A stretch of DNA of 64,000 bases from Nitrosarchaeum koreense MY1 (lineage in GTDB: Archaea > Thermoproteota > Nitrososphaeria > Nitrososphaerales > Nitrosopumilaceae), in NCBI RefSeq assembly GCF_000220175.1, contig NZ_AFPU01000001.1, positions 841,512-905,511 on the forward strand, read 5' to 3'. Under the pieces are notes generated by a model that made no database searches, was not told where the DNA came from, and worked only from the letters and a program-made list of their open reading frames with translations. The translations under genes were made by a program, and so were the position numbers. Within the stretch, counting starts at the first letter, position 1. Each line of letters opens with the position of its first letter. Positions 37,869-42,503 of this stretch are shown here, one piece after another.

Positions 37869-38432
37869 TTATCCGTATGAGATCAATTTCTTTTCTTCTA
37901 ACATTGAATGAATCTGATGAATCGCGTTAAATGCCTGTTCAGATGATTTGCCACCTGTACAAATTAATTTACCAGATGCAAATAACAACATCACAGTTTT
38001 GGGATTAAGTTGTCGATGGATAAGTCCAGGAAATTGATCAGGTTCATACATACTACGAGGGAGTTTTGTAGCTGCTTCCTCAATGAGAATTTTTCCTCCT
38101 AAATTTACAGCTGTAACTACGTTTTGGATCATAATATCTGCATCATTTTTAATTTGGATATTTTTTGAACGTAGTAGATTTATGACGTTATTTAGAGCAA
38201 TATACGCATGTTTTTCTGATTTTGCACCGGTACATACCATATTACCAGTCCTGAAAATTAATGTCGTCGTTCTTGGTAAATTTATCTTAAAAACTGCGCC
38301 TGGAAATTGCTGTGGATTATAGCTGGAATCAGGAAATTTTCTTTTAATCTCATGTAAATCTAAACTTTGATCAATAGTTGCAGTTGCAACTACATTTTCA
38401 ATGCAAACAAGTGGGATAGTAAATGCCAGAAT
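37869..38432 (-). CDS. tbp: TATA-binding protein (non-canonical start)
   Basis: The coding frame gives a full two-repeat TBP saddle of 187 aa: 'IENVVATATIDQSLDLHEIK', 'YNPQQFPGAVFKI', 'LIFRTGNMVCTGAKSEKHAY', then repeat two 'IQNVVTAVNLGGKILIEEAA', 'YEPDQFPGLIHRQL', 'LLFASGKLICTGGK'. All four DNA-kinking Phe positions are present, so it looks functional. No ATG, GTG or TTG occurs in frame between an upstream TAG (38433-38435) and Met65. The expected start falls on ATT 38432 (or CTG 38429). The preceding frame is a C2H2 zinc-finger ORF ending in that TAG. Confidence 0.87.
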   Translation of the reverse strand: MLAFTIPLVCIENVVATATIDQSLDLHEIKRKFPDSSYNPQQFPGAVFKINLPRTTTLIFRTGNMVCTGAKSEKHAYIALNNVINLLRSKNIQIKNDADIMIQNVVTAVNLGGKILIEEAATKLPRSMYEPDQFPGLIHRQLNPKTVMLLFASGKLICTGGKSSEQAFNAIHQIHSMLEEKKLISYG

Positions 38433-39652: not shown

Positions 39653-39775
39653 CTAGACAACATCTTTACATTCACATTTTTTTTGTTTGTCTGAACGTGT
39701 ATACTTTAGTTTATGACAAACTTCACAGTATAATTGATTTGCCACATTCATACAAGCACATCGTAGTATATCCAT
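39653..39775 (-). CDS. Tiny zinc-ribbon-like protein (40 aa)
   Basis: From an ATG at 39775 the minus strand encodes MDILRCACMNVANQLYCEVC and a basic stretch ending 'KKCECKDVV'. Three C-x-C or C-x2-C pairs (CAC, CEVC, CEC) provide six cysteines. An ATG at 39787 would add four residues. Likely a small metal-binding protein; nothing is known of the function. Confidence 0.55.
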   Translation of the reverse strand: MDILRCACMNVANQLYCEVCHKLKYTRSDKQKKCECKDVV

Positions 39776-39817: not shown

Positions 39818-40363
39818 TTACCTTTTTTTAATTAACAATGTATTTTGTATTTCATGAAGACTGTTGATGAATTTTTGTTTTGCTTCAAACTCATCTTTAA
39901 CAGCAATAACTATCTCAGTTGGAGATAGCATTACATCTTTAACAACAAGAGGAGAGCTTAGACCCAACATCTCACATAAGATATCAAAAACGTTTTGGAA
40001 TTTTGAGTTATCTCTATACTTGTAAACAGTTTTTCCATCAACTATTTTTGGACTTGCATCTAGAGGTATTATCAAATTTGGAGAGCTTACCTCAGAGATG
40101 AAAGTGTTGATATCTTTATCGATTATATTTCTAAGATCAGTTTTGGTTCTTTCTAGTTGTTCTTTTGCTTTTTCTAGCTCAACTAATTTATCATCATAGC
40201 CAACGCCTATCATTTTTGCAAAAGTTGATTCGGTTGAACGCTTAAGGGGAATCTCATGTAGTTGGACGTTCACATTAGATAGTGAATCTTCTACATCATG
40301 TAATTTAAGACGGTTTTCCTTAATTTGGATGCCTAGATTTTCAAGAAATTCAAAATTTGACAT
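39818..40363 (-). CDS. Coiled-coil protein downstream of artubulin
   Basis: This 181-aa protein has an N-terminal helix pair ('LGIQIKENRLKLHDVEDSLS', 'KLVELEKAKEQLERTKTDLR') with heptad spacing, then an alpha/beta C-terminal half ('NLIIPLDASPKIVDGKTVYK'). I do not recognise the family. It starts six bases after the artubulin stop, so it is almost certainly cotranscribed and may be a cofactor or regulator of that polymer. Confidence 0.72.
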   Translation of the reverse strand: MSNFEFLENLGIQIKENRLKLHDVEDSLSNVNVQLHEIPLKRSTESTFAKMIGVGYDDKLVELEKAKEQLERTKTDLRNIIDKDINTFISEVSSPNLIIPLDASPKIVDGKTVYKYRDNSKFQNVFDILCEMLGLSSPLVVKDVMLSPTEIVIAVKDEFEAKQKFINSLHEIQNTLLIKKR

Positions 40364-40369
40364 ATCTTT

Positions 40370-41755
40370 TTAGCTAAATTGGTGGACTACATCCATCAAG
40401 CCCTGTTTAAATTCTTCAGTTGAGAGACCCCATCGACCATATTCATCTTTGTATCCATCCCATGCTTCTTCAGCTTCTTTTGCAATCTCCAAAATCTTTG
40501 GTCCAATCGCCTTTGTATTTACAAGAACGGCAATACTTGCTTGTTCCCCATCCATTATTGGGATTTTTACAAAGATCATTCTAGACTCTTCAATGTTGAA
40601 CTTATCCTTGATTATTCTTTTAATGGCCTCTCTCTCCTTAATATCAAATTCACCTTTCACTTTAACTAAAACACAACAAGAATCACGTGAGCTTCCATTG
40701 TTTCGAATATCATTTTCATCAATATCAAACAGTAATGCATCTTCTTTCTTACCAAGTTTATTTAGAACGTCCTCCATTGTGTTATTTTTTGTAGATGTCA
40801 ACATGTCTTTGCCCCATTGACTTTCAGATGGGCTAACTGGCATAATCCAAGGAATTGCAAATTTTGGTTTCTTTGTTGCAAGCCATGTACGATAATTAGA
40901 CATATCCCATTCAGTTTCTCGTGCAAATGAAGAAATAAACATCGAAATAGTGTTTGCAGCTATCAAATTCATTCCCTTGTAATCTTTCCAACCAACTTCA
41001 TGTTCTTTTGGAAGATCATCTATAATAGAAGGAATTTTTTGTAATTTCTTGTCATGTTGATGAGCAAGTTTTCTTAGTGCTTTATTTGAAACCAAGATAG
41101 AACAATCGCTGTATTTGATTTGGTATTCTAAATTCATTACAATGTTAATTGCAGCTGCCTCGAAAATTACGGGATCCCATCCAAATTCAGGCATTAATCC
41201 AAAAGTGGCAATTGTAGCATGTTCTTTGGTATTGGTTTTTATGTATTCAATAAACGCACTTGAAAATGAGCTTCCAGTTCCACCACCCATAGCAAATGGA
41301 ACAACATATCCTCTTACTGGTTCTGGGGAAATTGCAGATAGCTGTTTTTTGATATCAACTTTAGTCTTCATTTCTTCAAGGAATCTTGTCTTTCCTTCTG
41401 CCCAATTTCTTGCTGCTCCTCCTGCGCCATGAATTACATGCTGATCACGTAAAGCAAAAAGGTCAGGATATGATTGTAAAATTAGATTAGCAGCTCTTGG
41501 ATCAAGATCAACAAGCAGTGCCCTTGGAATAAGTGGAATATCACCATCACCGTATGATGGGGAAAATCTCAAAATTGTGCTTCCGTATCTTTTTAAAACT
41601 CGCGATTCATCTTTTGAATTCAATGTTGGCTTTAGAGGGTCTGCTCCAACATCTAACAGTAACCTTCGATATGATTCAGCCCCAAGTCCTATTCCACAAT
41701 GACCAAAACAGATCATAAGAACAGGTGCTGGTGGAAGAGGTGCTAATTTAGACAT
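40370..41755 (-). CDS. Tubulin-like GTPase of the artubulin type
   Basis: From ATG 41755 this is a 461-aa protein that follows eukaryotic tubulin rather than FtsZ. T1 'GHCGIGLG' is at 18-25 (tubulin GQCGNQIG); 'RALLVDLDPRA' is at 78-88; 'GAGGAARNWAEG' is at 110-121; the T4 signature loop 'GGGTGSS' is at 157-163; T7-like 'EWDMSNY' is at 282-288, with Asp284 present but Asn287 where alpha-tubulin has a catalytic Glu. It should bind GTP and polymerise. It follows a CdvB-like gene on the same strand. Confidence 0.9.
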   Translation of the reverse strand: MSKLAPLPPAPVLMICFGHCGIGLGAESYRRLLLDVGADPLKPTLNSKDESRVLKRYGSTILRFSPSYGDGDIPLIPRALLVDLDPRAANLILQSYPDLFALRDQHVIHGAGGAARNWAEGKTRFLEEMKTKVDIKKQLSAISPEPVRGYVVPFAMGGGTGSSFSSAFIEYIKTNTKEHATIATFGLMPEFGWDPVIFEAAAINIVMNLEYQIKYSDCSILVSNKALRKLAHQHDKKLQKIPSIIDDLPKEHEVGWKDYKGMNLIAANTISMFISSFARETEWDMSNYRTWLATKKPKFAIPWIMPVSPSESQWGKDMLTSTKNNTMEDVLNKLGKKEDALLFDIDENDIRNNGSSRDSCCVLVKVKGEFDIKEREAIKRIIKDKFNIEESRMIFVKIPIMDGEQASIAVLVNTKAIGPKILEIAKEAEEAWDGYKDEYGRWGLSTEEFKQGLMDVVHQFS

Positions 41756-41882
41756 GATTACTTGACCTAAAATGCTATTACGCTGCTCATTAATAAGAGA
41801 GTAGAACAAATTATACCAACCATATCGTGTTTAGATACTTTTTTACTTAAAAATTGTTTAAAAATATTGGTTTTTTAATTGT

Positions 41883-42503
41883 CTATTGAAGACCGATAGA
41901 GTTTGAAGATGAAATCCCAGTTGGAATTGATGGGAATTTATCACCAACACGAGTTCCAGCAACGGCAGCTGCTTCTTTAAGGATATTTTCAGTTTCTTCG
42001 TTTGATGCACCATCAAATTCAAAGCTTCCTTCAAATGAACCAGAGATGGATTCATTGAGAATACCAAACAACGATTCAAATTCACGGCTTACCTCTGGCA
42101 TGATTTTTCCCAAAGCTGGCTTTAATGCATTCATGGTTGCCATAACGGGGCCTAATGATGCCATTGCATCACCTAAATCAGATACGGTAGATAATCGTAG
42201 ATTAACTTGTTCTAAGGAGATCTTCATAGTGGTTAGAATTTTTTTGTTCTTTCTTATTTCCACTAATTCATTTGCAAGAACTCTGCCAGTGGAAATATCA
42301 TGGTTCTTTTTTGCCATTACAATTCTGTTAAATAATTTTGTATCTTTTTCATCTAATGTTTTTACTTTATAATCAAGAGTAGATACAGTTTTGTTTAATT
42401 GTACGAGAGAGTTTTGAATTCTTGGTTTAATTGGTGCTTCTTTTTTTAGACCACGAATATGGTCTGAAATTCCTTTTGATTGAGGATTATTCCAATTTGT
42501 CAT
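41883..42503 (-). CDS. cdvB: CdvB/ESCRT-III (Snf7-like) protein
   Basis: This 206-aa protein has the Snf7/ESCRT-III helical core: 'PRIQNSLVQLNKTVSTLDYK', 'DISTGRVLANELVEIRKNKK', 'LEQVNLRLSTVSDLGDAMAS'. ESCRT-III forms membrane-constricting filaments in archaeal division. The C-terminal part is low complexity with no winged helix, so this looks like a short paralogue rather than the main CdvB. It lies upstream of artubulin on the same strand. A cdvA or Vps4 gene is not present in this window. Confidence 0.85.
   Translation of the reverse strand: MTNWNNPQSKGISDHIRGLKKEAPIKPRIQNSLVQLNKTVSTLDYKVKTLDEKDTKLFNRIVMAKKNHDISTGRVLANELVEIRKNKKILTTMKISLEQVNLRLSTVSDLGDAMASLGPVMATMNALKPALGKIMPEVSREFESLFGILNESISGSFEGSFEFDGASNEETENILKEAAAVAGTRVGDKFPSIPTGISSSNSIGLQ

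Follow-up and report, generated by a model that had tools for sequence, protein, structure and literature searches.

The artubulin gene of Nitrosarchaeum koreense belongs to a conserved gene pair with a downstream coiled-coil gene, independently of its ESCRT-III neighbour

Introduction

Artubulins are among the few tubulin-like proteins of archaea and have featured in discussions of how tubulin originated, although their placement in trees has never been fully resolved (PMC13394414). Those of two Nitrosarchaeum genomes, N. limnia and N. koreensis, were reported by Yutin and Koonin in 2012 with MFS, TBP, Snf7, dCMP deaminase and DNA polymerase genes in the neighbourhood, and cooperation between artubulin and ESCRT-III in cell division was predicted (PMC3349469). 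A 2023 study repeats the Snf7 link and states that coiled coils are frequent in genes near archaeal tubulin-like proteins (PMC9871819). The artubulin–Snf7 neighbourhood is thus already known from 2012 and 2023 (PMC3349469, PMC9871819). A further artubulin, that of Nitrosotenuis uzonensis, is reported to be ~79% identical to the Nitrosarchaeum proteins and to be encoded away from Snf7 (PMC3835317).

Here, we analysed a 64,000-nucleotide stretch of the N. koreense MY1 genome, referred to as the window, in which an artubulin gene lies between genes for an ESCRT-III protein and a coiled-coil protein (hereafter, the coil protein). An initial annotation had read these three genes as a combined tubulin/ESCRT module in which the coil protein links or regulates the polymer. 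We compared the locus with other genomes of the order.

Results

Three genes and their family matches

The region 39818-42503 contains three minus-strand open reading frames separated by gaps of 127 and 6 bases, as had been annotated:

39818-40363, minus strand: coiled-coil partner gene, 181 amino acids, beginning 6 bases after artubulin; AlphaFold model obtained
40370-41755, minus strand: artubulin, a tubulin-like GTPase of 461 amino acids; Tubulin PF00091, E 6e-17; top PDB sequence matches are Asgard tubulins
41756-41882, minus strand: 127-base gap between cdvB and artubulin, examined by sequence and by leader comparison
41883-42503, minus strand: CdvB paralogue (ESCRT-III, Snf7) of 206 amino acids; Snf7 PF03357, E 2e-9

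The artubulin length was counted from a conserved ATG; the longest frame starts at a TTG at 41809. All three genes are intact in relatives, so they are not chance open reading frames.

Two other features of the region were recorded. At 39653-39751, the interval from the coil gene to the MscS gene holds a 32-codon minus-strand frame with cysteine pairs (MNVANQLYCEVCHKLKYTRSDKQKKCECKDVV), and a similar frame is visible in L163, a locus without artubulin. The TBP gene at 37869-38240 is matched in G000, G001, G007 and G006 and in part in G016, and is unmatched in several other Nitrosarchaeum genomes where the region is covered.

The GTPase is of the tubulin type

The Pfam match of artubulin to PF00091 was above the cut-off. 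The GTPase domain alone was recognised, and no match to Tubulin_C was found in Pfam at E values up to 1. In PDB sequence searches, Asgard tubulins ranked best both with the single sequence (E 1e-17) and with a profile of 29 artubulins (E 5e-22). They were followed by gamma and other tubulins, and the best 60 matches were all tubulins or tubulin-like proteins. The NCBIfam FtsZ model TIGR00065 matched none of four artubulins, whereas a true FtsZ and a CetZ-like protein, used as positive controls, were both matched. In a profile comparison with one CetZ-like protein, 75 columns aligned with a probability of 58%. An AlphaFold model built with 29 sequences was of low confidence (pLDDT 49); tubulins were the top Foldseek hits with it, which lends weak support. 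The motifs GHCGIGLG, RALLVDLDPRA and GAGGAARNWAEG are all present and fall within strongly conserved stretches of the family. The assignment of the GTPase as an artubulin, tubulin-type rather than FtsZ-type, is supported, in agreement with the initial annotation.

In a weak hhalign alignment (probability 5.5%), D284-M-S-N287 of artubulin is set against the D-F-A-D of the FtsZ T7 loop, and the stretch W283-D284-M-S-N287 is invariant in the 29 artubulin sequences. This alignment suggests that Asn287 takes the place of the second catalytic Asp of FtsZ. An invariant Asn at this position in turn suggests slow or altered GTP hydrolysis, and it is tempting to speculate that the coil protein might modulate it.

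Distribution of artubulin

A search of 400 genomes of the order detected artubulin in 95. In a phylum-wide sample, artubulin and the coil gene were found in this order only, with the same pairing in family f1. Two artubulin-bearing contigs titled Gammaproteobacteria bacterium or bacterium (L208 and L268) are probably mis-binned archaeal contigs. Within Nitrosarchaeum, the genomes lacking artubulin fall on three branches of a PolB tree, which suggests two or three losses.

This patchy distribution with repeated loss would be expected if artubulin and the coil gene were a dispensable accessory or a selfish cassette with no role in cell structure. We regard this explanation as very improbable, as artubulin is strongly conserved (93-100% identity within Nitrosarchaeum, 53-57% between families) and no mobility genes were recognised among the neighbours of the pair that were checked. 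An attempt to estimate dN/dS met saturated synonymous sites.

Artubulin and the coil gene are linked, and are present and lost together

The coil gene was present in every artubulin genome (95/95), and lay directly downstream of artubulin on the same strand wherever the contig reached far enough. In a redundant set of loci, 120 were scored as adjacent, 4 were not assessable and 8 were scored otherwise; in these 8, the stop-to-stop frames overlap and the coil gene is still directly behind artubulin. The linkage is kept in f1, f3, f10 and f13, although the rest of the neighbourhood differs by lineage, and it persists in deeper families in which the coil protein is just 21-30% identical to that of the window. 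The annotated tie between the coiled-coil gene and artubulin was therefore upheld by co-occurrence, a comparison in which CdvB fared differently (see below). Pairwise distances of the two proteins were correlated (r 0.97 overall; 0.88 and 0.92 within groups), as expected from joint inheritance.

Some lineages carry further genes beside the pair. In genus g9, a gene of ~99 amino acids with a weak SHOCT match lies directly upstream of artubulin (L111:5860-6159 and others). At most loci of family f10 (L073-L087), the coil gene is followed on its own strand by a gene of ~310 amino acids with no assigned function, and f10 loci have a divergent von Willebrand A domain gene upstream.

Losses also affected both genes. 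G010 (Nitrosarchaeum) and G204 (from a genus with Nitrosotalea-type synteny) have no artubulin and retain only decayed remnants of the coil gene. Artubulin and the coil gene are thus lost together. Such strict linkage could arise from joint transfer or neighbour loss rather than from interaction, but its persistence in several families whose surrounding genes differ speaks against this.

The coil protein and its relatives

The coil protein was modelled confidently (pLDDT 90.6) as a helical hairpin (about residues 4-92) followed by a small alpha/beta domain (about 100-180). Pfam and NCBIfam searches at E values up to 1 assigned it to no family, and Foldseek returned no match at E <= 0.001. A second structure comparison returned helical hairpins with Z about 7, among them seryl-tRNA synthetase, the CHMP4B hairpin and tubulin cofactor A, and these resemblances may merely reflect a common arrangement. 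When the coil profile was searched against PDB sequences, all matches were to coiled coils.

Relatives of the coil protein occur without artubulin in families f2 and f8, those of f8 being shorter and encoded beside EMG1 and Rpr2 genes. The coil protein therefore need not be tubulin-specific in origin. It might be an older protein with another role, beside which artubulin was added, the linkage then serving expression or transfer rather than interaction. The unrelated surroundings of the artubulin-free relatives (Radical SAM, EMG1 and Rpr2 genes) are in keeping with this. In family f1, however, the genomes with an intact coil gene are those with artubulin, no intact coil gene without artubulin being found among the genomes listed, and coil remnants remain where artubulin has gone. 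On balance, we consider this origin unlikely as an account of the pair.

CdvB adjoins artubulin in one genus

The third gene matched Snf7 above the Pfam cut-off. Its match to the NCBIfam CdvB1/B2 model (E 2e-43) was below the model cut-off, and the equivalog cut-offs of the CdvB and CdvB1/B2 models were not reached (148 bits against 350; 81 against 370). In an order-wide search, CdvB adjoined artubulin on the same strand at all 11 Nitrosarchaeum artubulin loci. It was absent from every artubulin locus read outside this genus. Moreover, six Nitrosarchaeum genomes that lack artubulin carry a CdvB orthologue (81-87% identical) at the corresponding position. These genomes are spread over the three branches of the PolB tree; in five of them the orthologue lies between dCMP deaminase and MscS genes, and in the sixth the contig ends. 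One of the six is G010, with its decayed coil sequence. Thus, the pair was lost together while CdvB stayed. The adjacency of CdvB and artubulin derives from one placement in one genus and represents a single evolutionary event, not repeated co-occurrence. On one f13 contig (L094), CdvB lies 3 kb from the coil gene, a proximity that by a rough estimate is about the chance level given several cdvB copies per genome.

These neighbourhoods bear on the proposal, made in 2012 (PMC3349469) and again in the initial annotation, that artubulin and CdvB act as a single module in division, linked by the coil protein. The constant adjacency within Nitrosarchaeum, the predicted cooperation (PMC3349469) and the role of Cdv proteins in division of these archaea, as known from N. 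maritimus (PMC3349469, PMC3835317), all favour it. Against it stand the absence of CdvB from the artubulin loci read in other genera, the reported lack of Snf7 near the N. uzonensis artubulin (PMC3835317), the persistence of CdvB where artubulin is gone, and the leader stretch in the 127-base gap between the two genes. A tubulin/ESCRT operon as a conserved unit is ruled out by gene neighbourhood, and ESCRT-III probably does not belong to a conserved artubulin machine. We therefore hold a shared division module to be decidedly improbable, and the Nitrosarchaeum CdvB is best regarded as a neighbour by position. A recruited, genus-specific interaction between artubulin and CdvB may nevertheless exist within Nitrosarchaeum. 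Overall, the artubulin identity and the coil linkage in the initial interpretation stood, and the conserved tubulin/ESCRT module did not.

A conserved leader precedes artubulin

The gap at 41756-41882 consists of a T-rich run past the cdvB stop, followed by a leader stretch kept within Nitrosarchaeum (GGTATAATTTCTTCTACTCTCTTATTAATGAGCA type). No promoter-like motif above chance was found in the gap of the window. At ~50 loci, a block of ~55 bases (ATGTCTAYAACRATCAAG...TTAAAG) begins 75-88 bases before the artubulin start (e.g. L231:4916-5000 and L012:2890-2965), and it is kept in Nitrosotalea, Nitrosotenuis and relatives. A conserved small peptide was rejected, since the stretch is interrupted by in-frame stops and varies at every codon position, and so was a folded RNA, as there were no consensus pairs; Rfam gave no match in the leader stretch of the window. 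The block is perhaps a regulatory site.

Discussion

The function of artubulin has so far been guessed from its Snf7 neighbour, and the present comparison weakens that guess. The coil protein, encoded beside artubulin in every lineage examined, becomes the candidate partner instead. We propose, as the reading we moderately favour, that the functional unit is a two-gene cytoskeletal module of artubulin and the downstream coil protein, with ESCRT-III outside it. Whether the coil protein is further an obligate, dedicated partner, co-inherited and co-lost with artubulin across Nitrososphaeria and working without ESCRT-III, we rate as an even chance.

In the proposed two-gene module, artubulin would most likely bind GTP and form tubulin-type protofilaments. 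The coil protein would most likely bind artubulin or its filament, and anchor, bundle or regulate that filament. We infer co-transcription of the two genes, physical interaction of their products and a cytoskeletal role.

By sequence, the nearest relatives of artubulin with solved structures are the Asgard tubulins (AtubA/B; PMC13394414), although the match is confined to the GTPase half. OdinTubulin is reported to be encoded beside coiled-coil genes resembling ESCRT-like or microtubule-binding proteins (PMC9871819); its neighbours are unrelated to those in the window, and the likeness to the coil gene is one of description. The coil protein is not named as an artubulin partner in the text of the cited papers, although Figure 6 of PMC9871819 may draw the same gene. 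For the artubulin of Nitrosotenuis uzonensis, the available portion of PMC3835317 describes no partner, and its position away from Snf7 agrees with our result for CdvB. The artubulins of N. limnia and N. koreensis (PMC3349469) belong to the same protein family and have the same neighbours as the window. To that description, the present analysis adds a constant companion gene, that of the coil protein, along with many more lineages and the finding that artubulin is independent of CdvB.
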